Source: a virus. Taken from it: 64,000 nt of DNA. Shown in pieces: positions 1 through 35,580 of this stretch; within the stretch, counting starts at the first letter, position 1, and each line of letters begins with the position of its first letter. The DNA is taken from positions 124,001-188,000 of IMG/VR virus record IMGVR_UViG_3300046323_000587; one strand, 5' to 3'. A program made the position numbers and the translations under genes. Below the pieces are notes generated by a model. That model had not been told where the DNA came from and did no database searches. It saw only the letters and a program-made list of their open reading frames with translations.

Positions 1-3000
1 TGATTTTAAATCATTCATTTGTTTTTCTAGAAGTTGTTTTTCATCAATAGATAGATTAGACTTAGAAGTTTGTATTAAATAGTTTAAAAATCCAGAACCA
101 TTTTGTTCTTGATGAAGTTCTTGTAATTTAGCTACTTTTGCTTCATCGGATAAATCTTTAAATCTTGGATCTTTTATTGCTTCTAAATAAGAAAGCATTG
201 CCTCTATGTGAGATGTTGAAGTAATATCAAAAGATAAATAAGTATAACAAAGTTTACGAGCAAGAGAATTAAAGTGTTTTTGTTGAGAAGTTCTATTTTT
301 CTCTCTTAAAGCAACTAAAGAAGTCAATCCTTCTATATTAGGTTTTACAGTAGGTACATAGTTAGTAGGTTTATCTGCGTAAGTATTAGGGTTAAGAATA
401 AATTCAAAAGTATTCTTCTTCAATGCTTCAGCCATTTTTAAATAGAAGAATATATCTATATTAACAAGAGCTGTTTCATCTTTATCTAAATCTTTATTTT
501 GTTTTACTTTATCAGTTGATTTTTGTAATACTCCGTCAATTAAACTTACATAACGATAAGAATCTGACTCTGTAAAGAATAGATTATTAGCTAGAACTGA
601 ATTAAATATAGAATTAGCTAAACCTAAACTACTTAATTTAGTATTTGTTGCTTTTGTTACAGCTAAATCTTGTGTAAAAGATAATGCTAATGCAAAATTA
701 ATGCTTGTAGGCACATTTGAATCTTTAACATTTCTTGTTACTGTACTTGTTTTACTAACATCAATAATAGAAGTATCTTCATTTGTTAGTAAATCGTTTA
801 GTCTTATACCAATAAAATTAGAATAAGTTTCTCCATTTTTAGTTAAACGAACTAATCTATTGTTATTATTCTTTTTATTAATTTCTATAAAAGGTTTAAT
901 ACTATCAATAACAGTATTTTGGTCTTGAATTCTTTTTAATAACAAACTTGCTATTTTATATTGTAAATGAAAAATACTTCTATGTTTTTTATCTTCAAAG
1001 TTTGTAGAATCTTCTCTATAATCTAAATTTTCATCTCCATAAATTTCTATAATATAGCTTCTTAATAATTTTGGATTGTTTTTTAATTTTTCTATTCTAT
1101 TGCCTGGAACATAAGTAGCTAGTTGATTTATGCATTTATCATAGTCTTTTTTATTAAAATTCTCCCAAATAGTGTTTTTATTACTAGAAAGAGTTTCTAA
1201 TAAATTAGTATAATACTCTTTATTTTTTTCTATTAATTGGTCTATATTAAGTTTATTGCTTGTACGAGGATTTTTAAATTTTAAATCTCCAATTAACTTA
1301 TTTGCAAAACGTTCTCTTAGATTTTTAATATAACCTTGACCTTTATATTTATCTTCTATTACAATTGAAGCAGATGCACTTCCAGTAAGTTTTACCGCTA
1401 CATAAGAGATATTACTAGCAGTTTTAAAATCAATTAACATTGGAATCAATAGTTGTTCAGATTCACCCGTTTCTAATAAAGCTCTATACATTGAAATAGA
1501 GTTATTACTTACATCTAATGAAAAATATTTATCATAAAGAGCTTTTAATAAATTAAATTGAGTTTCTTGTAAGTTTAAACTATTATTCTCTAAAACAGAT
1601 TTTATATTTTGTCTGAATATTTCTATATCTCCAATAGAAGTTAAAGGTTTCAATCCTGCTACTTCATAATCTATCTCCATTTGTTGAAAAGCCTCTTTTC
1701 TTAATAACTCACTGTTTTTATTTAATAGCAATTCAGCTTTATTTTTAGCTTCTCCAAATATGTTAGCAATCTCTCTAAAAGTAAGATAAGATTCTCCTGT
1801 TGAGATATTAGACAACATTAATTGACCAATAGAAGAGAATTTATGGTGTTCAACATTATCTTCATTTGAATAGTTATCTTTAATTGTAAGACTTTTATCT
1901 GAATGTACTTCTCCTTTACCATTAATAGAAACTATTCTATCAAAAGTTGCATTTACTAACCCTGTAAAATTATTATGAATAACTTTCAATAGATTTTCTA
2001 GTGGTGGATTGTTTTCATCAATAACAAGTACAGTAGTTGAATCACTTGGTAAACTTTCTACTGGATTATCGTCATTATGTTTATTTACAAATGCTTTAAT
2101 ACCTAAGTACAATCTTTTTATTCTATCCTCAACTGATTCTGTATTATAATAAGTGACCACACCTTTAACACCCCCTGCACTTAAAGGATTAGCTTTTTCT
2201 GGATCAAAAAATAATCTAGCTCCAATTAAATCTTGTAATAGTACAGTAGCTTGATTAAATAATGTTGTATCTAAATCTGTTTTCTTAGCTGTATCAGCAG
2301 GAATAGCAAAATCTTTTAAATCCTCTGGTGTAACTTGACTTTCTGCAGCCAATAAATCTTCTTTAGTTTTAGCTAAACCAGAATAATTTACTCTACTTAC
2401 AGTTGATAAAATAGGTTCAGAACTTTGATCTGGATTATCAGAATAAGGTGATTGTGTAACTATTTTTGTTGGTTTAGTGTCAGTATCTAAAAATAAATTT
2501 GTATGTCTAGTTAATTCTATTCTTTCATTTTTAACAATTCCAGAAACATAATGTTTGCCAGATTCGTATTCTATTTTAATAGGATTTAGTGTAGTTTTAG
2601 AATATTTAATAGCTTTTTTAGAATATGTTTTACCGATTGTAGTAAATTCAGTTACTGTATCTGTAACATCTAATTTATTTACTTCTTTTATAAGTTTTAT
2701 TTCTGAATTAATTTTAGATTGAATAACAGGATTTAATTGTTTTTCTATATTTGCTACATTAAATTGAAGCTTTTTAAATTGTTCTTTATTTTGATACTTT
2801 TTAATAGAAGTTTCTTTAAAAAATCTTAGTGCGTTATAGAAATCAACTTGAATGTTTCTTTGAACTTCTTCTACTTCATTTAAAGTCATTGTACTTAAAT
2901 CACTATAATCAAAACTATTAAATGAATTTAAAATTTCTTTTTCTAATAAAAGAAAAGTATCTGATTCTAATTTAGAACCAGATAAACCTTCTTTAATTTT

Positions 3001-3090
3001 TTTATTTATTTCTGAATATATTTTATCAATAAATATATTAGCATTTGCTTTATTAAATTGTTCTATTTTTTGATTTTTACAATCTGCCAT
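1..3090 (-). CDS. Giant virion protein, N-terminal 1030 residues (partial)
   Basis: This frame is open from an ATG at 3090 to the left edge of the window without a stop, so the gene is cut off and its end is outside. The protein starts MADCKNQKIEQ. The start lies one base after the stop of the 3833-aa gene, so the two are translated from one message. It is helical, Lys/Asn/Glu-rich and has no signal peptide. I saw no confident catalytic motif in the visible part; a segment near residue 360 reads VLVIDENN but without a P-loop. In crAss-like phages the giant proteins at the end of the cargo run include the virion-packaged RNA polymerase, whose DxDGD-type motif would lie further on. That identity is a guess from position only. 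The frame and coding nature are secure. Confidence 0.8.
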   Translation of the reverse strand, partial: MADCKNQKIEQFNKANANIFIDKIYSEINKKIKEGLSGSKLESDTFLLLEKEILNSFNSFDYSDLSTMTLNEVEEVQRNIQVDFYNALRFFKETSIKKYQNKEQFKKLQFNVANIEKQLNPVIQSKINSEIKLIKEVNKLDVTDTVTEFTTIGKTYSKKAIKYSKTTLNPIKIEYESGKHYVSGIVKNERIELTRHTNLFLDTDTKPTKIVTQSPYSDNPDQSSEPILSTVSRVNYSGLAKTKEDLLAAESQVTPEDLKDFAIPADTAKKTDLDTTLFNQATVLLQDLIGARLFFDPEKANPLSAGGVKGVVTYYNTESVEDRIKRLYLGIKAFVNKHNDDNPVESLPSDSTTVLVIDENNPPLENLLKVIHNNFTGLVNATFDRIVSINGKGEVHSDKSLTIKDNYSNEDNVEHHKFSSIGQLMLSNISTGESYLTFREIANIFGEAKNKAELLLNKNSELLRKEAFQQMEIDYEVAGLKPLTSIGDIEIFRQNIKSVLENNSLNLQETQFNLLKALYDKYFSLDVSNNSISMYRALLETGESEQLLIPMLIDFKTASNISYVAVKLTGSASASIVIEDKYKGQGYIKNLRERFANKLIGDLKFKNPRTSNKLNIDQLIEKNKEYYTNLLETLSSNKNTIWENFNKKDYDKCINQLATYVPGNRIEKLKNNPKLLRSYIIEIYGDENLDYREDSTNFEDKKHRSIFHLQYKIASLLLKRIQDQNTVIDSIKPFIEINKKNNNNRLVRLTKNGETYSNFIGIRLNDLLTNEDTSIIDVSKTSTVTRNVKDSNVPTSINFALALSFTQDLAVTKATNTKLSSLGLANSIFNSVLANNLFFTESDSYRYVSLIDGVLQKSTDKVKQNKDLDKDETALVNIDIFFYLKMAEALKKNTFEFILNPNTYADKPTNYVPTVKPNIEGLTSLVALREKNRTSQQKHFNSLARKLCYTYLSFDITSTSHIEAMLSYLEAIKDPRFKDLSDEAKVAKLQELHQEQNGSGFLNYLIQTSKSNLSIDEKQLLEKQMNDLKS

Positions 3091-6000: not shown

Positions 6001-9000
6001 TATCTTCTTTATTTAAATTTAAATCAGAGGCATCAGCATAAGTTTTAGCTTGTTCTATTTTAATAATAATTTTAGGCGTTAATTTGATTTCAAAATCAGC
6101 TTTAGTTAAAGTAGGAAATATTTCTTTTAGTTGAGCTATTCTAAGAGGGTCTAATTGAGCTTCAAGCTCCTTTGTTAGATTCTTATATTCTATATTATTT
6201 AGTGTTCCTTTTAATTTACTTTGTTTTAAAGTTTCTAGTTTCTCTACAATATCTTTTATAGGATTGTTTGTACTTAATATAGACCAAAGATAAGATTCTT
6301 TAAGTTTATTGTATAGTAACTCTATTGTAGTAGTATCTGTACCTTCTGCAAACAATTCATTAAGGTTTAGATTTTCTTTATTGCTTATTACCGCTTTTTT
6401 AAAATCCGCTTTTATTTTTTCAGTAATTTCTTGAGGTGTTTTATCAGAACCTTCATCTTCTTTTATAGGATCTTTTTTTGATTCTTCTTCTACTACATTT
6501 TTATAATAATCTCTAATAAATTCCTCTGCATTAGCTTTATCTAAAATACTTGGTATAGAATAATACTCTCTTTGTTCTTGTTTAGAAAAATCAGTGTTAG
6601 CTAAATCTGGTGTAGTAGTCAAGTCATTACTTTGAAATACAATCTTATCAGTTGCTTTTAAAAGCATAGTATATAAAGGTCTCGATGTAGATAGAGTAAG
6701 ATCATCTTTATTTAAAGCAATGTAAGCGTTTCTATAAGATTTACTTTGAGCTTTTTGTAAAGTAGTTACATAACCTAAATCAATTTGATTGAATCTAGCT
6801 TTAATGCTGCTGTGATAATCTGAAATTGATTTTGATTCTAGTAGATTTTTTAACTCATTTCTTCCATTGCTATCTAAAAAAGGTATTGTTATTGTTCTAC
6901 CTCCCTGTTCTAATGTTACTGTATAACCTGTAAATTTTTTACTATCTAATTTAATCTCCTTTCTATCTTTAAAAAATTCCAGATCTCCCTCTAAAATACC
7001 GTCACTTATTTTATCTACTGTAAAAAAAGTTCCAAGTTTTATAATTTCTGTATATTGTCTATCGATATATTGTTTAATACTTGTTGTAGTAACAATCAAA
7101 TCACCTTTTTCTAATTCTTTTTTTCTACCTAATTTTGTTCTTACTCTTTTATTAAGTTCTTCAGCTCTTTTAATTGTACTTGTAATAATTCTAGTAGAAG
7201 TTAGATTAGCCTTAAAATCTTTTATAAAAGTTTCTAAAAAGACCTCTTCTTCTTTTATAACAGCTACACCTGAGTTAGTTTCTGAATCAAAATTAGACTC
7301 TATTTTTTTAGTTTTAGTGTCTGTTTCAAATATTCTACTTAAATTGTTGTAATCGGCTAGTTTAATTATTTTTGTTTTAAATTCATCAATTCTAACTTCT
7401 TTATTCTTAAAGACTTTACTTTTTTCAGGTTCTGGAATATCTATTGTATCCTTATCGTATAATAAAATAAATTTTCTTCCAGGTTCTATTAAGTTACCTA
7501 TATCGGAATTACTTATATATTCTGATTCAACTATAACTATATAATCATATTTCTTATCTATTGGTCTAGGTACACCTTCTTTTATAACTTTTTTTCCATT
7601 TTCATCTAAATATTCACTAAAAGAAGTAGTAATAGTCATACTTCCAGATATGTCAGCTTTTGTATATAATTCTAAACCAGCATTATTAGGTGATAAATAT
7701 AAAATATTAGAACTTAATTCAGATATTTTCTTCAATATATCAGTTTTATCAGTTTTTGAAGACACATCAACTCTAACAGAGCGAGTAGAATTGGCTATTT
7801 CTTCTATTGCAGCTAAATTAAAGTTTTCTTCTTCATCAGCTTTAACTTTACGTCCTAATTCTGTTGAAGTAAAAGATACTTCTTCTTTAACAAAACCAAG
7901 TAAATCTGTATTTATGTCATAATCAGTTGGTTCTTCTTCTAAAGATTCTTGAGTTTGTATTATTATATCTAAATCATCTGTTGAAAATTCTTTTTTTACA
8001 GGCTTATTTGTAATACTAGATTTAATTTCAGCTTCTTTTTTAGTTGTAGCAGCAGGTTTAGGTTTGTTGCTAGTTTTAACTTTAGTTGATTTACTTGCAC
8101 CAGAATCAGATGTAGGTTCTTTTCTTACTTCAACATTTTCGACACCTTCAACAGGAACTAACCTAACTTTTAATTCTTCTACTTGTTTCTTATAATTAGC
8201 TTTTGCTTTTGATTTAACCTCTTCATTAGATAAAAAAGTAACTTGATACCCACCTAATTCTTTATTTGGTGTCTTTTCTTCTGCTTCTTGTAATCCTAAA
8301 TGTTTTAGAATGTTTTTGTGCTTATTTCTAACAACAATATTAACTCTACGTTTACCTCTTGAAACTGCTGTGATTAGTTTTGTGAGAATATCTAGATGAT
8401 AAAGTTTTTGATCAAAATTTGTACCAATAAATTTATCGTTTACTATTTCATCTTTTGTTGATTTATTATAAGCTTCTTTTATATTATCATAAATAGAAAC
8501 AATATCTAAAAATACAACTTCTTTTTCACTTCCTTGTGCTTGAGAATTTGTATAAGTTAAAATATCGTCTACAACTTCTTCTCCAATTACCATTATTTCA
8601 GATGTATCTATTTCTTTACCTATTCTTTTAAAAGGTTTTATAGCTACATTAGATTCTTTAGCTTTTTCAAACAATTCTTTTTCTTTTGTAGCAGCTTCTT
8701 TATATTTCTCTTTTTCTCCATTAACAAATTGTCCGAATCCATCATCAGCAATAACAGATACTTTAATACCAGAATAATCTTCATCATTATAAGAAATTTT
8801 ATCTTTAAGATTCAAAGAACCTAATATAGCTATTATATCAATAGAAGCATTATCAAATCTAGAATCTAAGGTAGTTATATTATTTTCTAATGCTTTTAAT
8901 CCTATGTTTAAAGTAGCTAAAAAATCAATATTAGCTTTATATCCAATTCTTAAAGAATCTGTCAGAGGTAAAGTTCTAGTAATAAAAGGAATTGAAGTAA

Positions 9001-12000
9001 TGCTGTTATTAGTATATACAGGATATTTATCTGGTTCAGAAGTGTGTGAGATATTTTGAATTTGTTTAGAATCTCCTGTATAAAATATAGGCAATCTATT
9101 CTCAAGATTAGCTGCATTTTGTAACTCTTCTAAAAAATAAATTACATTTTTAGGTATGTTAGTTGCTTCATCATAAAATATTGAATTATAAGTTTCAGCA
9201 AACACTTTAAATTTTTCAATATTACCATCTTTTAAAAATACCTTATAATCTGTTGTTTCTCCATTAATTAAATCAAAAGCTTCTTTTTCAGTTAATCCAA
9301 ATTGTTGTAATAAAGCATTTAAAATACCAAAAGGTTTGTTTACTAAGTTCTCAAATTTTGCTATGCCTAAGTCTCCTAGTTTATCAACTTTATCAACTTT
9401 ATCTTTTAAGTCAAATGTTGATAACATTGAATCAAAATTGCCTTGTTGTATAATATTATTAGATAACAATAAAGTTTTTTTAGTTGAATTTTTATTTATT
9501 AAAGTAAGTAAATATGACATAATCATAGAAGTCTTACCTGTACCGAAAGTACCATCAATAAATATTTGGTTTTTAATAGGGTTGTAAATATCTAAATAAG
9601 CTAATATTTCTTGTTTGTATACTTCCTTATCTTTACCTAATAATACTTCTTTTAATGTTAGATCTGTTACATCTTTATCACTTGTTTTACTATAATAAGT
9701 GCTTTTTTCAAAATCTATTTTATCTCCATTAAAAAAAAGATTTATATTTGAACTTAATCCAAATTGTCTAACTAAAGATTGAAATTCTGGTTCAATTAAT
9801 ATGTCTTCTGTTAAGTCTTTATCAAAATATTCTTTTAATTTAAGAACTTTTGAAGCTAGTATATCAAATTGTTTATTATCTTTTGCTAAATAAAACTTAT
9901 ATGCTTCTAAGATTACTTTTTCTTGTATTCCAATAGGCGCATTTACATTTTCTTTTTCTAAAAGAATAGAAATAGTTTCAAAATATAGTTTTCTGGAATT
10001 ATTAGAAGGAAAATTTAATACTTCAGAAATATAGTGGTACTTAGCAGCTAAATTATATTTTTGTTCTTCTAATAAGTCTTCTGAAATTGTAAATTCACTA
10101 GAACTTTTAAATATACCTGTTGTATTTTCTCTTAATGAACTTAAATTTTGAGAAGTTGTTACACTATTATAAATACCTGATTTTGTAGCAAGATTGTCAC
10201 CAGGATTAATTTTTATTACTTTATTTACACTTGTAGTATATAAATCTACGTGACCGTTATCTTTTAATTCAACTCCTCTTTCTAAAGCTTCTCGTTCATT
10301 GTTTTGATAGTTTATTAAAGCTTCATCAATCAATTCTTTTACTTCTTTTTCTTGTGTTTGATACCAAGAATATAAAGCAGTTTCAAGTTCACTTAAATAA
10401 ACAATATCTTCTACAATAGTTTCTGAACTAATTTTATCAAATTCTTTATCTGGACTGTATTTATCACCTAGTTGGTTTTGTATTTCAGAATCAATACCGG
10501 AAATTAAATTTATTGTAGAGTGTAATACAGCTGTATCTTTTTTTACTACTGTGATAGATTTTTTAATGAATAAATTATCTTTATTATTTTCATTAAAGTT
10601 TTTTCTTTCAGTTAAAAATTTTACAACTCTTTCATTATTTTCTAATATAATTCTAGTTTTTAAATATTCTTTATCAAATGCAGTAAAGAATTGTTGTTCT
10701 TTAGAATCTTTTTGAATTTCTTTTAGTTTAGAATCATAAGAACCATTTAATTCAACTTCTTTTTTAATTCCATTAATAAATAATAATAATTTATTAGAAT
10801 TTTCTAAAAGATTTATAATATTATTAATTTCAGCAACAGAGTATAATTTTAAAGTTCCTTTATCTGAATTTTGAAATGCAGCAACATTATTTGAATCTAT
10901 TTTTTGAAGTATTTCAAATTCTTTTTCTAGTTCTTGTGTGATATCAGTATATTGACTTGCTACTTCACCTGATAAACTTAATCCTTTATCAATTAAAAGA
11001 GTTTGAAGATTTTCAAAGTTTTTTGCTAATTGATTATATTTAGACAATAGATTTTCACTAAGAGTTTTGTTTAACTCAGGAACATCATTTTTATAACTTC
11101 TAATTAATTCTTGTTGTAAAGGTTCTTTTTTAAATTCATTCAAATAAGGATTTTCAGAATCTCTTTTCCATACATTAACCATAGGAATAATAAATTCCAT
11201 AGCAGACATTAAAGCTCTTTGTTTATCTATTGTAGATTGAAGTTTACTTAATTCTGTAGTAACATTAACAGTTTCAGAAGTCAATCCAAATTCTTCAATA
11301 TCGGAATTAAATTGTTTAATGATTTTATTTCCAGTTGAACCAGCATTATTTAATGAATTATCGTTATCAAAATAAAATTTAGAAAAATCAACTTCTGGCT
11401 CTATTTCAATATGTTCTAATAAAGTTTCTTTAAAAAGGTTTTTAAAATCAGTATCTTCAGTTTCATCATCAGAATAAATATTTTCATTTAAGCTTTTAAT
11501 AATATCCGTAAATTTTTTATTTGATATTTTTGTACCTGCTTTTATAACAGTTGAATCAATAAATTCTTTAATAAAAGATTTTTGAAATACTTTATCTTTA
11601 AATGAATCAGTAAATTTATTTACTGAATAAATATTTCCATAATCATCTTCATCTTCTGTTTCAATTACATAATTTGTGTATAGTTCATTTCTTAATTTAT
11701 TATCTAACAGACTCACTTTTTTATCATTCTCCAACACATCTCTACTAACATCATAATTCTTAATAGGATTCAATGAAGCTTCTTTATATTTCTTAAATGC
11801 TAATTTAGCCTTAGTAATCTCTTCTTTACTACTCTCAAACTTACTTGCATCTATCTTACTTCCGTCTTCTGTAAAGTGTCTATGAATATCTGGATTTATA
11901 TTAAATAAAGCTTGATGTAAATAATCTGTAGCTAATTTACCTGTTTCTATATCTCGTTTTTTTCTCAAAACAGCATCAATGGCTTCTTTATTTGCACCAG

Positions 12001-26988: not shown

Positions 26989-28929
26989 TTAAGCTTTTTT
27001 AATTACTTTATTTTTATTGTCAATAGTATTATTCAATAACTGTTGAGTAAATAATTTACCTAATTCAATAGCTTTGATATCTTTTTTGTTATTTAAAAAA
27101 TCATAAGCCATTTTTTCAACTTTATCAGCTATCTCTTTATGAATAATTAACTCATCTACTTCAATTTCTGAATGTTTTTCAGGAATTCCTTCATTAACAT
27201 AAGCAACAACTGGAACTCCTTTACGACCTAAATCTAATTCTTTTGGAATATTATTATTTCTAGCGTGTAATACACCATCAACAATTTTATTTGTTTTACC
27301 AGATAAATCATAAACAATTTGTCCTCCGTGTTTAAATTGTTGATAGCCCGTAGATGGACTGTTTGAACCAGCCTCTTCACTTTGATTTTGAGATTCTTGT
27401 TGATACATTTGTTTAGCTTGCTCTAGTTGTTCGGGTTGTAGAGATTTTAACTTAGCGTCAAACTCTTCTTGTGAACGAACACCTAATTTTTGAGCTAACC
27501 ATTGCATAAACGCTGGATCTGGTTGTTCTTGTGGGACTTCTTGTTCTCCTCCTTCTTGATGCCTAAGTTTTTTTACTTTATTCATAGATCTTTGTAATTC
27601 TAAAGAAGGTTTGAGTAAAGGATTATAATTTAAAATAGATCCAGTCTGACAATTTTCTAATTTTTTATTTAATTTTTTGTTTAGTCTATTGCTTAAATCA
27701 GAATTAGTAGTAAGTTTTGTACCATTTTTCCAAATCCCAAATAATTTTGGATGTTTTTTTTCTCTATAATATTCTTTTGGAATATATTTATGTTCATCTT
27801 CTTTAATTTTATCGAAGTTATTAAAGTTTTTACTAGGTTTTAAAGGTACTCCATTAATAAGAGATTCTCTTTCTTCATCTATTAATTCAAGTAAATAAGC
27901 TTCTGTATCATTAAGTTTTGGTCTATTTGTTAATTGCGTATATTGTCTTTGAAGTTCTTCTAATCTTTTTTGTTTTTTTACTTCATTGACATCTGATTTG
28001 AACTCATTTCCTTTTTGATATTTTATTAATCCTCCTTGAAGGTGTTTTTCAACTAACATAATAATCTTTTTACTTACTTGAGGATGAATTTTTTCTTTAA
28101 GATAATCAATTAATCTTAAACGTTGTTCTAATGCCTTATGTTTTAATAATTGGTTTGTTTCTTCATCAAATACTCCATTATTACGACGATCTCCAATAGA
28201 ATGTTGAATAATCTTGATTTGAGTTGGATGTAATTCTTTTAGTACGTCTGTATCAATACCATCAGAATCAATATCACAAGGTAGTTCAACTTTCATACCA
28301 CGACGAGCCATTTGAGAAGCATATTGAGCAAAATTAGCTTTTTGTTGATTGTCTAATTCTTGTTGCATTGCAGCTTGATTCTTTTTAAGTTTTTCTTCTT
28401 TATCAAATTTACTATCTTGACCTGTTAATTTAGCAAAACCATCTGACAAAGAACCTCCTCCAAGTATATTTAAAGCAGCTCCTCCTAAATTAGTAACTCC
28501 GTCAGCAGCTATACCTAATACAGGAGCAGCAACACTTCCTAAACCAGGAACTAAAGCATTTAAACCTTGTTCTGCTCCCATTTTAATACCAGCAGAAATA
28601 TTCTTTTCTAAGCCATTTTGTTTTTGATTGATTAAGTCTGTTGGAACTACACTACTTAATAATTGTCCTGCCATTCCTGCTAATCCACTACCAGAAGCAA
28701 TATTTCCAGCTAATGAAGCTAATCCAGAAGGGTTTGTACTTGGTGTAGGTGTATTTACTGGTTTAATATCAACTCCTTTTATTGGTTGTTGCCCTAAATT
28801 CCCAACTAATCCTTTTGGTCTAGTTAATTCTAACATATTTACATTAGGCATTTTTTCAGGTAACTTACCAGCAGGTAATTGAAATTTTAGTACAGAACCA
28901 TACTTATTTTTAAATTTATTTGTTATCAT
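26989..28929 (-). CDS. 646-aa tagged cargo protein with hydrophobic segment
   Basis: Unrecognised family. The N-terminus reads FKNKYGSVLKFQLPAGKLP, a variant of the tag. Residues 60-170 are Gly/Ala/Leu-rich (LVPGLGSVAAPVLGIAADG) and could insert into or cross a membrane. Internal tags follow: HLQGGLIKYQKG (about 300), LRHQEGGEQEVP (about 460) and FKHGGQIVYDLS (about 535). The C-terminal 100 residues resemble the end of the 612-aa protein (SEIEVDELIIHKEI, then LGKLFTQQLL). It overlaps the end of the patatin gene by 14 bases. The features fit an ejected, membrane-associated virion protein; the function is unknown. Confidence 0.7.
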   Translation of the reverse strand: MITNKFKNKYGSVLKFQLPAGKLPEKMPNVNMLELTRPKGLVGNLGQQPIKGVDIKPVNTPTPSTNPSGLASLAGNIASGSGLAGMAGQLLSSVVPTDLINQKQNGLEKNISAGIKMGAEQGLNALVPGLGSVAAPVLGIAADGVTNLGGAALNILGGGSLSDGFAKLTGQDSKFDKEEKLKKNQAAMQQELDNQQKANFAQYASQMARRGMKVELPCDIDSDGIDTDVLKELHPTQIKIIQHSIGDRRNNGVFDEETNQLLKHKALEQRLRLIDYLKEKIHPQVSKKIIMLVEKHLQGGLIKYQKGNEFKSDVNEVKKQKRLEELQRQYTQLTNRPKLNDTEAYLLELIDEERESLINGVPLKPSKNFNNFDKIKEDEHKYIPKEYYREKKHPKLFGIWKNGTKLTTNSDLSNRLNKKLNKKLENCQTGSILNYNPLLKPSLELQRSMNKVKKLRHQEGGEQEVPQEQPDPAFMQWLAQKLGVRSQEEFDAKLKSLQPEQLEQAKQMYQQESQNQSEEAGSNSPSTGYQQFKHGGQIVYDLSGKTNKIVDGVLHARNNNIPKELDLGRKGVPVVAYVNEGIPEKHSEIEVDELIIHKEIADKVEKMAYDFLNNKKDIKAIELGKLFTQQLLNNTIDNKNKVIKKA

Positions 28930-29818
28930 TTATAAAATCATTTAATAAAAATTTATTATTGTTTGCAATCATTTCCCAAATAGGTAAATTTTCTATTCGA
29001 TCCATTTCAAGATATTCTTTTTGCAATTCTACATCTACTCTATAATATTTTAAACCTTGTTTTTTATACAAATTAAGTGAATAATCTACTACATCACTTC
29101 CAGCTTTCATAAAACTTTCAATAAGAGGGAATTTACTTTTGTGTATCAACCAATCTAACATACCCCAATCTTCATTATTTACATTTAAGTTAGCTTCCGC
29201 AGAATATCCTGTTCCTAATGATAACACAACTATATTAGAAATATTAATTCCTTTACTAATAGCTTCATTTACAGCTATTTGAGCAGGATTATTTGAAACA
29301 ATTCCTCCATCTATATAAGAATCTTTATCAATTATCCAAGGATTAAAATAGGTAGGAGCAGCAGTAGAAGAACAAATTGCTTCTAAATAAGAGGTAGTAG
29401 AATCTTTATAGGATTTAAATAATTTAACTTTATTTTTAGTAAAATTAAAACTAGTCATAATAAAATCAAATGTACTTTCGGATAATTTTTTATCTATTGG
29501 AATATACTTAGCTAAGGAATTATACAGATTCATATTATCATATTTAGCTCTAATTGCAGAAAATATAAATCTAAATTTTTTTTTGAAAATATTTTTAGCT
29601 TCTTGTTTATATAGTTCTATAATATCTTTCGAAGAATATTTTAACGACAACATTGCAGTTATAATAGAACCAGTAGAAGAACTTGCATATAAATTAAACT
29701 TAGTTGTATCAAAACCAACAGAATCTAAGTGGTCTAACATAACAGCGGGAATAATTCCTTTTAAGCCTCCACCATCAATAGACAATATATAATATTTCTT
29801 ATCAATCATATTTAACAT
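28916..29818 (-). CDS. Patatin-like phospholipase
   Basis: A patatin-family lipid acyl hydrolase of 300 aa, the usual size for a single-domain patatin. The oxyanion-hole motif DGGGLKG is at residues 15-21, the nucleophile elbow SSSTG at 46-50 (Ser48), and the catalytic Asp in DGG at 170-172, followed by the typical NNPA. All three elements of the Ser-Asp dyad site are intact. The nearest well-known relatives by motif are CapV-type phospholipases. There is no signal peptide and no GG tag. ATGs at 29818 and 29809 are both possible starts. It lies between the small 126-aa protein and membrane-segment cargo genes, which suggests a role in membrane damage or entry rather than metabolism. The family is sure; the role is inferred. 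Confidence 0.9.
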   Translation of the reverse strand: MLNMIDKKYYILSIDGGGLKGIIPAVMLDHLDSVGFDTTKFNLYASSSTGSIITAMLSLKYSSKDIIELYKQEAKNIFKKKFRFIFSAIRAKYDNMNLYNSLAKYIPIDKKLSESTFDFIMTSFNFTKNKVKLFKSYKDSTTSYLEAICSSTAAPTYFNPWIIDKDSYIDGGIVSNNPAQIAVNEAISKGINISNIVVLSLGTGYSAEANLNVNNEDWGMLDWLIHKSKFPLIESFMKAGSDVVDYSLNLYKKQGLKYYRVDVELQKEYLEMDRIENLPIWEMIANNNKFLLNDFINDNK

Positions 29819-30426: not shown

Positions 30427-33400
30427 TTAACTAAAAGATTCTAAATATTTAGTAACAATAGCTTGTATCATAGAATATTCCATTCCTTCATAAGTAATTT
30501 TTATTCTACAATATTTATCTCTAATTTGTCTATTATTACCAAATACACTTTTAGCAGGATTAATAGAGCCTAATTTATCATTAGTATTTTTATCTATCTG
30601 AATGTAGTGAATATTTTCTCTATACTCGTGATTAGCGTGAATAATACCAACAATAGTAGGATCTAAACTTCCTTTATCGTAAGCATAACGATCTCTATAT
30701 CTTGATAAAATAGGTTGTTCAAGATATATTTTATTAGGGTACGGCAATACATCATCTCTTTTAAATTCATTGTCGTTAGTATATTCTATTTTAGTTGGTG
30801 GAACTTCATTTGCAATTATAGTAAGATTAGTAAATACTTTATGTTGTAATCCATCAACTACTACAAACTCTATAACAAATTCTTTTTGTTCTCCATAATA
30901 ATTACAATAAAGAGGTATTCCAGAAGCAGTAACAGCTGTATGATGTTGCCAAATTTGTTCTGTGTTAGATGTTAAAGGAAAAGAATGTAAATCTCCTGTT
31001 ATAGAAAAGGCTCTTGAAGGATACCAAGTATAATAAGTTGTCCAACGACCATTTCCACCTTGTTGTTCATTCCAAGCAATATGATGTTTAAATGAACCTT
31101 CTTCTTTTGGTGATTTAATTTCAGCTATTTTATATCCAGATATTTTATCTACTGTAACTGGTACACAACTTGTAATTGGTGGTGGTGCCGGTGCATCATA
31201 ATAAAAAGACACATTTGTATATAAACCAAAACCACTATTTCTATCAGAAAGCCACCCTTTATAAGTATTTGTAGAAGAAGGTGGTAGTATAGGATATGGT
31301 GGTAAAGGGATGTTTAATCCGTTAATAGTTAAAGTTATATTACCCAAAGAATCTACTGTCCAAATATGTAAAGATTCTACTCCATCTGGTATAACATAAG
31401 CAGGTAAAGCTGACATAGTGGCTACACCATTAACATAAATTTCAAAACCTCCCCACAGATTTCTAGAATTAATATGTCCAACACAAATGCTATTACCGCC
31501 ATAAAATAATCCTGCCATTTGTGCAGGATAAGCAAACATATTTACAATATATGTAGTTGTATAACTAAAAGTAAAAGCAATAGTAGAAAAATTAGTTGTT
31601 ACTGATTTTCCTCCATCATTTGGGTCTGTTGTATCATAACCCCAACCAGGTGAATTTATATCTATATCAACTGAAGTAGATTGTATATTAGATACTATGC
31701 CACGTATATAGTTAGTTTCTAATGTCAATATACTTCCTCCTATACCACTAATTTGTTCACAACAATAATCTCCTGCATAAATAGTAATTAAATCATAGTT
31801 ATTATTAATAAAAGTAAAATGAACATTATTTTTATTTCCATCATAAAATCCGTACACTTCATTATTCAATAAAGTAATATTTTTATTAACTAATTCATTT
31901 TGTACTTTAACTAACAAAGTTTGCAATCTAAAATCACTTATCAATTGCAATTGACCATTAAATCTCCATATTTTATGATTATTAATATCAACTCCATAAA
32001 TAGATTCTCCAGTTGATACAATACTAAATTGCCATCTAGTTCCGTACCCATTTCCTACATAAGCATTTCTAGAATTTAATACTTGTCCTTCACTTATATA
32101 AATACTTGCAGCTGTATCATTATTTAATAGTTGTCTTTCATCAATAGGTATATAAGATAATTCTCTTTCTTGAATAATGAATAATTTATCTCCTTGAAAT
32201 TCTTTTATAGCTACAATCTCACCATATTGAGAATCATAATCTTGTTTGGAAGAATGTTGAAGATACCTATAACTATTAATAAATGAATTTTTTACATTTA
32301 AATTAGAAAATACAACTCTTGTTTCAAATCTATTTGTAATATAAGGTAAAGAAGTATCTAAAGCTATTGTAAATCTTCCCATAGAGCTGTATTCAAATCC
32401 TATATTTGCTTGTTTAGTTTCTAATAAATTATATTCAGAAAAAGGATTGCTTCCACCAAATGGGTCTCCTTCTCCAGTAGTAAAAGACATATTATAAGGA
32501 AAGAAAGATCTTTTTCTTAATTCTTCTACTTCCACTAATTCAGGTTCCCTAGATGAATAATTGTAATTGTTTTCAGTTACTATTGAAATAGTATAACCTA
32601 ATCTAGTTGTTTTTGCTGATTCATCACTATTAATTTCTGTACGAGACACATTTTTTGCATTATTACGATAAATCTTTTTATATCCAACATTAATAAAACA
32701 ATCACCTTGAAAAGCAGTAATAGTATCATTAGTTAATACATTAAAATTACCAGTTGAAGGTTTAGTAGAAGGAAAGTAGTATCTATCTGTAATAGCAAAA
32801 TATTGTTCATTTGCAGGTTGATACTTATTCTTAAATATATCTTGACGAACAGTTTTATTTAAAAAATCAGTTTTATAGATATTAATTATTCTATTAGATA
32901 CCAAAGTATTTGAAGGATTGTATTCACTAGGTGTAAATCCAGCTAACATACCTTCTTTTCCATCATATAAAGTAGATACATCAGAAGGTACTCCTATATT
33001 GCTAATATCATTGCTGTATCTATTAGTGATAGGATATCTTTCAGATAATTTTACTCCTATATAATCTTCAAATGTAAGTGGATGATAAGTATATTGTCTA
33101 TCATTATCTTCTGCAAAATCATTTATTTTAACTACTGCAGTAAATTCAGCTTGTGAAGAAAACACATTAGGAGATACACCGGCACTATCTTGAAATACAT
33201 AATCTAGTGAAGCTTTAAGATTTCTTTTAAATGTTGGACCTACAAATGTATGAGAAACTGTCTTTAATAAAGAAAAAGTTGAAGAAGTTGAATTATTTTT
33301 ACTATACCTAGTTTTATTAGGGTAATACATTTTTAAATTAGCTTGACCAAGAGTATGTAAATAAAAAGACACTCCAGCTAATTTTTGACTATATATAGTT

Positions 33401-35580
33401 TTATTAACACTTAAATCATTTGAATAAAAAGCAAATCTTTTATATTGTTCCTCAAAAGGTGTCCATCTTCCGTGATATTTAGTTGGACCTAATAAACCAT
33501 TAGTTACTCCCCATTTAGAATCTCCTCCTCCGTTAAGATAAGGATTTTTGCCTACTTCATTAGAATTACCGTCATCATCAGTTTCTTCATCATCTACATC
33601 AGCTTCAAATAAACCCAAAGATTCTAGCATATAACCAAAAGCAGGTATAAATTTACTGTTAGCCATACTAAAATTAGTGGAATTAGGTCTTTTCACATCA
33701 CTTGTATCAAATTCAAAAGCATCAAATTTCCAATGTGCATTACCTACTCCAGCATTATTATAGTTTTGTAATTGAGAGCCGTACAAATCTCCACCTGGTC
33801 CACCTGTATCATAAGGACTTTTATGTAATGTAGGAACTAATAAAGTATCAATCATATAACCTTGTGTTAATACATCTTCTTTACGATTAGTTCTTACCAT
33901 ATAAAAACCAATAGTACCTTCTGGTTGTGGTTCTCCGATTGGAAAATTAAATTTTACACCTAAAACATTAAATTGAGAAGCTTCCAATACACCTGCAAAA
34001 AGATCTCTTTTAGGAAAACGATAAACTCCTTGAACATTTTCTAAATTAGTTGTATCAAATAAATCAATATTAAATGATTTATAGCTATAAGAAGGAGTAG
34101 CAATTGTATCAAAATTATCTATTCCTCTAATTGGTATTACAGGAGAAGTTGAACCATTTGAGTAAATATAAACAATACCAAAAGAGTAAGTCTCTCCTCC
34201 CCAATAACCTAAATTATAATAAATATTGTTAGAATTATTATAACCAAATCTATCTACACTTCCTGAAATAGCATCTAAGTATTCTATATCATATCCACCA
34301 TTAGATTGAGTTACACCAAAAGCAGGTATTTTTTTAATTTCGTAAGTAGTTGTAATTTTATTTGCGTGAAGTTTTAATAGTTCATAATTATATTGACTTA
34401 TTTTAATATTGCCTATAAATAACCTATTTCTAATTTGACAAATGCTTCTAGCTGTATCTACATCAAGAAAATCTACTGGAAAATTATTGAGATCTTCATT
34501 TACTTTATCTTCTTGACCTGTAAAAGTAAATTCATAAAAAGTGTCTGTAATGGGGTATTTTTTTATTATTGTATAACCAAATTGAGCAGAAACTACTTTT
34601 CCATAAGAATATACATAAGATACTTGAACATAAGAGTAAGAAGTATCAATATTATCTAAACGAAATTTAATTACTTTATTTACATTATCTTTTGTATCAT
34701 CTAAACCTTTTCCTCCTCTTGTAGAAACTACACTATTACCGTGAAACATAGATACCATTGAAGACTCTGATACAATATTAGTATTATTTCCATCCACAGT
34801 AGCAAATCTAAAATAAAACTTATAATTTCCAGTTGGAAAACTACCAAGAGTTGATTCTAATAAACCATTAAAAGTAAGTTTTGTAATTAAAGTAGATTGT
34901 AGAACTAATTTAATTGTATTATTGAAGTTTAAAGAAGAATAGAAATTAGTATCTTTAATTTGAGTACGAAATATGATTTTAGCTTTTTTATTAGGTAATA
35001 CTGAAAAAGCAGAATTAACTATTCTAATTGGATTATAGTTATCTGTAAAGACAATATTCATTGAATTATCATAACTCTTTTGCAATTCAACTTCACAAGG
35101 TTGATTAATATTAAAAGTAAACTCTGCTGCATTAAACTCTCCATAATTAATATAATCTAATAATTGAGAATAGTTTGGATTAGTAAGATTACAATAATTT
35201 CTTAATGGGGAATACTGGTCTATAATAGCACATTCATATTCATTTGGTCTGTTTGGATCTTGTAATAAACCTTCATAATCAGGACTAGGAAATGTACCTA
35301 TTTCTCCTCTTCCTGTAAAAGACTGTCTATCAGCATTATATTCAGCTGAAATAATATAAGCAATTCCATCAACATCTTTAACTCCAATACAAGTGTAATT
35401 AGGTTTTAGTTGAGATAAATAAGTATTACCTCTATTAGTTTGAATTACATTTTCGTTTCCTTGATGTGTAATAAATTCTGCATTTTCAGCATAAGTTAAT
35501 ACATTAGGCGGTGTTTGATAATTGCTAAAATCTTGAACTATACCTTCTTCAAAAGTATTTTGTGCTTGTTTTTGTGGCAT
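30427..35580 (-). CDS. Tail nozzle/muzzle protein (beta-propeller), 1717 aa
   Basis: A large, almost entirely beta-strand protein. Its start (FEEGIVQDFSNYQTPPNVLTYA) and repeated strands with Gly-Asp turns match the pattern of podovirus tail-tip tubular proteins (T7 gp12 type; called muzzle in crAss-like phages). A typical propeller stretch is near residue 1160 (DKLFIIQERELSYIPID, then IYGVDINNHKIWRFNG). Residues about 1274-1474 look like an inserted LamG/jelly-roll domain, after which the propeller-type sequence resumes. It sits among two connector-like genes and the 126-aa gene, as expected for a tail-tip gene. The assignment rests on size, strand pattern and position, not on a search. Confidence 0.65.
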   Translation of the reverse strand: MPQKQAQNTFEEGIVQDFSNYQTPPNVLTYAENAEFITHQGNENVIQTNRGNTYLSQLKPNYTCIGVKDVDGIAYIISAEYNADRQSFTGRGEIGTFPSPDYEGLLQDPNRPNEYECAIIDQYSPLRNYCNLTNPNYSQLLDYINYGEFNAAEFTFNINQPCEVELQKSYDNSMNIVFTDNYNPIRIVNSAFSVLPNKKAKIIFRTQIKDTNFYSSLNFNNTIKLVLQSTLITKLTFNGLLESTLGSFPTGNYKFYFRFATVDGNNTNIVSESSMVSMFHGNSVVSTRGGKGLDDTKDNVNKVIKFRLDNIDTSYSYVQVSYVYSYGKVVSAQFGYTIIKKYPITDTFYEFTFTGQEDKVNEDLNNFPVDFLDVDTARSICQIRNRLFIGNIKISQYNYELLKLHANKITTTYEIKKIPAFGVTQSNGGYDIEYLDAISGSVDRFGYNNSNNIYYNLGYWGGETYSFGIVYIYSNGSTSPVIPIRGIDNFDTIATPSYSYKSFNIDLFDTTNLENVQGVYRFPKRDLFAGVLEASQFNVLGVKFNFPIGEPQPEGTIGFYMVRTNRKEDVLTQGYMIDTLLVPTLHKSPYDTGGPGGDLYGSQLQNYNNAGVGNAHWKFDAFEFDTSDVKRPNSTNFSMANSKFIPAFGYMLESLGLFEADVDDEETDDDGNSNEVGKNPYLNGGGDSKWGVTNGLLGPTKYHGRWTPFEEQYKRFAFYSNDLSVNKTIYSQKLAGVSFYLHTLGQANLKMYYPNKTRYSKNNSTSSTFSLLKTVSHTFVGPTFKRNLKASLDYVFQDSAGVSPNVFSSQAEFTAVVKINDFAEDNDRQYTYHPLTFEDYIGVKLSERYPITNRYSNDISNIGVPSDVSTLYDGKEGMLAGFTPSEYNPSNTLVSNRIINIYKTDFLNKTVRQDIFKNKYQPANEQYFAITDRYYFPSTKPSTGNFNVLTNDTITAFQGDCFINVGYKKIYRNNAKNVSRTEINSDESAKTTRLGYTISIVTENNYNYSSREPELVEVEELRKRSFFPYNMSFTTGEGDPFGGSNPFSEYNLLETKQANIGFEYSSMGRFTIALDTSLPYITNRFETRVVFSNLNVKNSFINSYRYLQHSSKQDYDSQYGEIVAIKEFQGDKLFIIQERELSYIPIDERQLLNNDTAASIYISEGQVLNSRNAYVGNGYGTRWQFSIVSTGESIYGVDINNHKIWRFNGQLQLISDFRLQTLLVKVQNELVNKNITLLNNEVYGFYDGNKNNVHFTFINNNYDLITIYAGDYCCEQISGIGGSILTLETNYIRGIVSNIQSTSVDIDINSPGWGYDTTDPNDGGKSVTTNFSTIAFTFSYTTTYIVNMFAYPAQMAGLFYGGNSICVGHINSRNLWGGFEIYVNGVATMSALPAYVIPDGVESLHIWTVDSLGNITLTINGLNIPLPPYPILPPSSTNTYKGWLSDRNSGFGLYTNVSFYYDAPAPPPITSCVPVTVDKISGYKIAEIKSPKEEGSFKHHIAWNEQQGGNGRWTTYYTWYPSRAFSITGDLHSFPLTSNTEQIWQHHTAVTASGIPLYCNYYGEQKEFVIEFVVVDGLQHKVFTNLTIIANEVPPTKIEYTNDNEFKRDDVLPYPNKIYLEQPILSRYRDRYAYDKGSLDPTIVGIIHANHEYRENIHYIQIDKNTNDKLGSINPAKSVFGNNRQIRDKYCRIKITYEGMEYSMIQAIVTKYLESFS

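Follow-up and report, generated by a model that had tools for sequence, protein, structure and literature searches.

The window analysed here, a stretch of 64,000 nucleotides (bases 124001-188000 of the 226,480-base virus record G000), belongs to a crAss-like phage and carries a giant open reading frame (ORF) whose product appears to combine two helicase modules of superfamily 1 (SF1) with different origins. Module 1 has all motifs expected of an SF1 helicase, and module 2 is almost certainly a degenerate helicase module of the Dda type (subfamily SF1B). The explanation that accounts best for the data overall, and to which we give an even chance of being right, is that a live SF1 module was joined by a separately acquired, dead Dda-type module in a cargo giant associated with RNA polymerase (RNAP). 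The coordinates of the features are listed in Table 1; residue n of the giant begins at window position 14593-3(n-1).

The assignment of module 2 was made with a hidden Markov model (HMM) of Dda-like SF1B helicases, which comprises 35 sequences from phages and viral contigs and excludes both module 2 and the helicase of a second giant of the same phage (2,342 residues). Module 2 reached 54.5 bits in a single collinear match that covers positions 93-409 of the 439 profile positions, compared with at most 8.8 bits for 1,000 shuffles of its sequence and 0.6 bits for the reversed sequence; a TerL profile, used as negative control, gave 1.8 bits. Moreover, residues 2281-2655 align by BLASTP with the intact C-terminal helicase of the 2,057-residue giant of G034 (24% identity, 48.5 bits), 1,000 shuffles giving no more than 30.8 bits and segments of the 3,833-residue giant that lie outside module 2 no more than 26.9 bits. 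Dda-like phage helicases, among them T4 Dda (PDB 3upu) and those lying within giants of crAss-like phages (G034, cr118_1, cr50_1), are the best matches of module 2 by HMM, BLASTP and Foldseek, and they share with it a collinear core including the 2A insertion region, which in Dda forms the SH3-like 2B domain. The preliminary description had reported two SF1-type modules in one giant; this is borne out by the HMM scores, and the motifs it quoted were all found in place. Module 2 is invisible to routine annotation since the whole giant as well as each module gave no significant match to Pfam, PHROGs or PDB sequences, and a Pfam scan of the whole giant returned no family at E <= 1.

The motifs of module 2 were read against 31 relatives, in all of which Walker A is intact. 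The three P-loop glycines are replaced by V2277, K2280 and D2282, the last directly preceding K2283, and the arginine of motif IV is replaced by K2411. Further segments could be followed in between (NKRVRTKLG at 2481-2489 and KGDLIVT at 2496-2502), and next to motif V also Y2620 is kept. Because the Walker A glycines, the Walker B aspartate, the motif III glutamine and the arginines of motifs IV and VI are lost, module 2 is very probably ATPase-dead. The preliminary description had called the second module apparently dead for want of the P-loop glycine and the motif VI arginine (now K2646), which holds; the decay goes further, to three glycines and the Walker B, motif III and motif IV residues, while K2283 and T2284 of Walker A remain. 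It might be argued that module 2 has remained an ATPase that works with non-standard motifs, as K2283, T2284, E2356, D2380 and Q2616 are kept, but all three P-loop glycines, the Walker B aspartate and both arginine fingers are gone and the aligned relatives keep them, which makes this reading very improbable. A functional Dda helicase has intact catalytic motifs I, II, III, IV and VI; those of module 2 are not intact, and judged by its motifs it is a degenerate descendant of Dda and not a functional Dda helicase.

The predicted structure, when guided by relatives, is consistent with this assignment. AlphaFold2 gave no usable fold for module 2 from its single sequence (predicted local distance difference test, pLDDT, 33.7), and this model was discarded. 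Guided by the 31 relatives, the prediction was RecA-like (pLDDT 70.8; predicted template modelling score 0.65), with two RecA-like domains and a 2B SH3-like insertion; the structural check proposed in the preliminary description therefore came out in favour of RecA-like folds with guidance and without result when unguided. The best PDB match of the guided model in Foldseek was T4 Dda (3upu, E 7e-23, TM score about 0.6), followed by other Dda structures, RecD2 and RecD, and among viral models 'DNA helicases' of crAss-like giants took ranks 2-4. As the relatives guide the model, the match is partly circular, and the model is consistent with a Dda fold rather than independent proof of it.

The preliminary description had regarded module 2 as the product of a duplication, i.e., as a tandem duplicate of module 1 that later decayed. 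Both modules lie in one protein and their motifs follow in the same order, as a duplication would predict. However, BLASTP detects no similarity between the two modules, and with an HMM of the module 1 family module 2 reaches only -4.4 bits, below the values of its own shuffles (up to 7.1 bits). The Dda HMM clearly prefers module 2 (54.5 bits) to module 1 (22.4 bits), and when the whole protein is compared by BLASTP with the G034 giant, the Dda-like helicase of the latter pairs with module 2 but leaves module 1 unmatched. A duplication is thus highly unlikely, and module 2 is most likely not a copy of module 1. Since similarity to module 1 is missing by BLASTP, the family HMM score is negative and the Dda HMM prefers module 2, module 2 appears to be a separately recruited Dda-type helicase, the two modules having been combined rather than duplicated.

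Module 1 carries the motifs GTFGTGKT (1681-1688), FYDEAT (1806-1811), IFYTGDSKQI (1836-1845), QGSE and SRG; motifs I, II, III, V and VI are intact and are also conserved in orthologues. The giant of MT835470.1 is homologous by BLASTP to module 1 and to the N-terminal approximately 900 residues, and the latter are also homologous in the giants of G004, G006, G007, G008 and G021, whereas in MT835492.1 the equivalent parts are divided between two ORFs. The IMG/VR giants were recovered by reading TAG as glutamine (G004, G006, G007, G008) or TGA as tryptophan (G021); with MT835492.1, which also reads TAG as glutamine, these relatives recode stop codons, and translation follows the standard code in MT835470.1 and in the phage of the window. 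All seven relatives examined have one helicase, in which Walker A is intact and motifs V and VI can be recognised. Because this single intact equivalent is present in all seven, module 1 can be taken, from these comparisons, as the ancestral helicase of the protein family. The Dda HMM finds nothing in the giants of the relatives outside their module 1 region, and the two-module arrangement has no counterpart in any relative examined. By tblastn, the two-module region has no match among the INPHARED phages, where module 2 alone gives only E > 0.3, and a tblastn search of 32 crAss-like IMG/VR records and five binned genomes gave no match. In the whole-giant alignment G006 and G021 showed weak matches over module 2; on inspection these were gap-filled noise lacking the motifs and were rejected. 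As a side observation, residues 1-985, the N-terminal quarter of the giant, are its best-conserved part across the relatives, and hydrophobic stretches around residues 240-290 and 630-650 could be membrane or channel helices.

The source virus is a very large crAss-like phage (Crassvirales). It is placed there because major head protein, portal, TerL, muzzle protein and a giant with the RNAP signature DxDxD are all present. For the major head protein, portal and TerL the assignment comes from PHROGs families; TerL in addition has matches in 149 phage records, and the best of those listed belong to crAss-like or gut phages, with identities of about 27-34%. The RNAP signature (GSDYDIDK, around residue 2203) lies in the adjoining giant ORF of 3,655 residues. 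In size, the 226,480-bp record exceeds the 145-192 kb given for Zeta, the largest crAss-like group (PMC7886860). The transcription genes of crAss-like phages form a block encoding large multidomain proteins, one of which bears DxDxD (PMC7886860), and by its position the two-helicase giant belongs to this block. The giants gp47, gp49 and gp50 of phicrAss001, which are associated with RNAP, are carried in the virion as cargo (PMC10172136). Like the two-helicase giant, they follow the muzzle gene, adjoin the DxDxD polymerase giant and are thousands of residues long; a pair of a live and a dead helicase is not described for them in the literature examined, and the presence of the two-helicase giant in the virion is predicted from its gene position. 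Since muzzle protein, portal and TerL mark a crAss-like phage and DxDxD is found in the adjoining gene, this giant is probably virion cargo tied to the virion RNAP, the packaging being deduced from gene position.

For the role of module 2, we propose that the giant is packed into the virion as an RNAP-associated cargo protein and would be injected with the DNA, and that module 2 might act in it as a dead, DNA-holding partner of module 1, similar to TraI. The vestigial SF1B domain of TraI, which lacks Walker A and B, binds single-stranded DNA (ssDNA) next to the active domain and may split the duplex (PMC5422253). As in the giant, the TraI relaxase of the F and R1 plasmids, which acts in DNA transfer, has a dead and a live helicase-fold module in one chain with a linker between them (PMC5422253). 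The differences are that both TraI modules are RecD2-like and accompanied by a relaxase domain, whereas those of the giant belong to different subfamilies and stand in a phage RNAP context; an HUH relaxase domain was not found in the giant by the Pfam scan (E <= 1), which a very divergent copy could escape. By this analogy module 2 may be a DNA-holding partner rather than a mere spacer, a role for which we see a fair prospect, somewhat short of an even chance, and which we rank before a decaying spacer and, further behind, a sequence-sensing switch. Holding DNA would be compatible with the basic character of the 2A/2B half of module 2 (isoelectric point 9.5). Module 2 could have shed its motor function because intact Dda-type helicases exist elsewhere in the genome, which carries at least two of them, a 533-residue protein and one within the 2,342-residue giant further along the same block.

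Several points weigh against this explanation. Module 2 has lost most residues of the DNA-contact motifs (Ia, III and part of V), and the loss of several such motifs, as read from the alignment, speaks against a canonical ssDNA track. In TraI the dead module precedes the live one, whereas in the giant the live module comes first. Furthermore, selection on the fold of module 2 is not demonstrated, since retention barely exceeds that of realigned shuffles: 15 of 49 conserved residues are kept (realigned shuffles: mean 11.3, maximum 15) and the hydrophobic core is retained to 80% (fixed-alignment shuffles 36%; realigned shuffles mean 69%, maximum 77%). Both fold-preservation tests, on the hydrophobic core and on the conserved columns, were dropped as evidence for this closeness to the realigned shuffles. 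The only known copies, this sequence and that of a second contig, are identical and so offer no differences from which a ratio of nonsynonymous to synonymous substitutions could be calculated.

Alternatively, module 2 might be a decaying remnant whose one remaining function is that of a spacer or passive linker, the giant having to keep its frame because approximately 1,100 residues follow C-terminally. This would agree with the very long branch of module 2 (5.4 changes per column; its placement in a tree fails), with the loss of most motif residues including those contacting DNA, and with the fact that no relative examined has kept the module. However, the core can still be followed over its whole length in collinear order, at 54.5 bits and through about 300 profile positions without a large deletion, the frame is open and the GC content by codon position is coding-like, so that we consider a mere spacer rather unlikely. 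For a third role, as a sequence scanner or regulatory switch that would recognise, e.g., early promoters and act on module 1 or the polymerase, AddB and RecC could serve as models. Their folds are of SF1A type and belong to DNA-end repair enzymes; unlike the giant, they form separate subunits and serve Chi recognition in DNA-break repair. In both, the search for Chi is performed by an SF1 domain that has lost its activity, i.e., inactivated SF1 folds have been re-used as ssDNA sequence scanners, and a motorless helicase fold partners a live helicase as module 2 might do (PMC4824097). The gene adjoining the giant encodes an RNAP, which would suit such a switch, but the DNA-contact motifs of module 2 are themselves degraded, making a scanner improbable. 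The likeness to AddB-type arrangements put forward in the preliminary description, taken here together with RecC, survives only as a functional one and not as one of type, the nearer precedent being the vestigial SF1B domain of TraI (PMC5422253).

Table 1. Features of the two-helicase giant and its surroundings in the window.
Feature	Window position	Strand	Remarks
Start of the next giant ORF (residues 1-1030 of 3,655)	1..3090	-	runs on beyond the window
Giant ORF, 3,833 residues	3092..14593	-	single uninterrupted frame; part of the crAss-like transcription/cargo gene block
Module 2, residues ~2250-2660, degenerate Dda-type SF1B helicase	6614..7846	-	HMM, BLASTP, AlphaFold2, Foldseek
Degenerate motif VI RPLYTMLLKA, residues 2638-2647	6653..6682	-	Arg finger replaced by Lys2646
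Degenerate motif V TLQKAQSKS, residues 2611-2619	6737..6763	-	T2611, Q2616 kept; His and Gly lost
Degenerate motif III KFILLYDKDT, residues 2374-2383	7445..7474	-	Gly replaced by Tyr2379; Asp2380 kept; Gln replaced by Thr2383
Degenerate Walker B YIVIVESE, residues 2351-2358	7520..7543	-	Asp replaced by Val2355; Glu2356 kept
Degenerate Walker A SSKTDKTD, residues 2278-2285	7739..7762	-	K2283/T2284 kept; glycines gone
Linker, residues 2111-2245 (135 residues)	7859..8263	-	low complexity; K+E 29%, S+T 19%
Helicase module 1, residues ~1656-2100	8294..9628	-	every SF1 motif intact
Module 1 Walker A GTFGTGKT	9530..9553	-	
Crassvirus muzzle protein	30427..35580	-	PF25731, E 7e-36

Other proteins of this phage and of further contigs were noted as well. 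The 2,342-residue giant (L008:4614-11642, minus strand) combines its intact Dda-type helicase with an ART-PolyVal domain (E 9e-5, under the curated cut-off), and next to it a 1,445-residue ORF (L008:11662-15999, minus strand) has weak similarity to 2OG-Fe(II) oxygenases (E 2e-6, under the curated cut-off). Polyvalent proteins of phages and conjugative elements are, like the two-helicase giant, very long and multidomain (PMC5512222). A polyvalent signature domain was not found in the two-helicase giant itself by the Pfam scan. In L183-L187 (G034, G036, G041, G037 and G038), giants of about 2,000 to more than 4,500 residues contain the RNAP signature DxDxD together with an intact Dda-type helicase that forms the C-terminus or lies close to it, i.e., polymerase-helicase fusions; other dead Dda-type copies were not seen in the giants surveyed. 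A patatin-like phospholipase is encoded shortly after the muzzle gene, in a neighbourhood of tail and cargo genes (window 28916-29818, minus strand; PF01734, E 2e-24).

As a summary, the component parts of the giant are of known kinds, and their combination, a live SF1 module and a dead Dda-type module in one probable injected phage transcription giant, was not encountered in the databases searched or in the literature examined, most subscription journals lying outside that scope. The example also shows that degenerate helicases are missed by routine family searches and can be recovered by a purpose-built profile. Dead helicase domains partnering live ones, as in TraI, RecC and AddB, have shaped ideas on how motors gain strand splitting and sequence sensing. 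In its most far-reaching form, which we regard as unlikely to hold in every part, the present explanation is that a virion-injected transcription giant pairs a live SF1 motor with a recruited dead Dda-type part for DNA holding or sequence sensing, that this pairing arose independently of TraI and of RecBCD/AddAB, and that it would pull in or open the phage DNA for the virion RNAP. If true, the joining of two SF1 subfamilies in an injected phage transcription protein would represent an independent origin of the live/dead design, and it would point to a DNA-remodelling step in the poorly understood early transcription or DNA entry of crAss-like phages.

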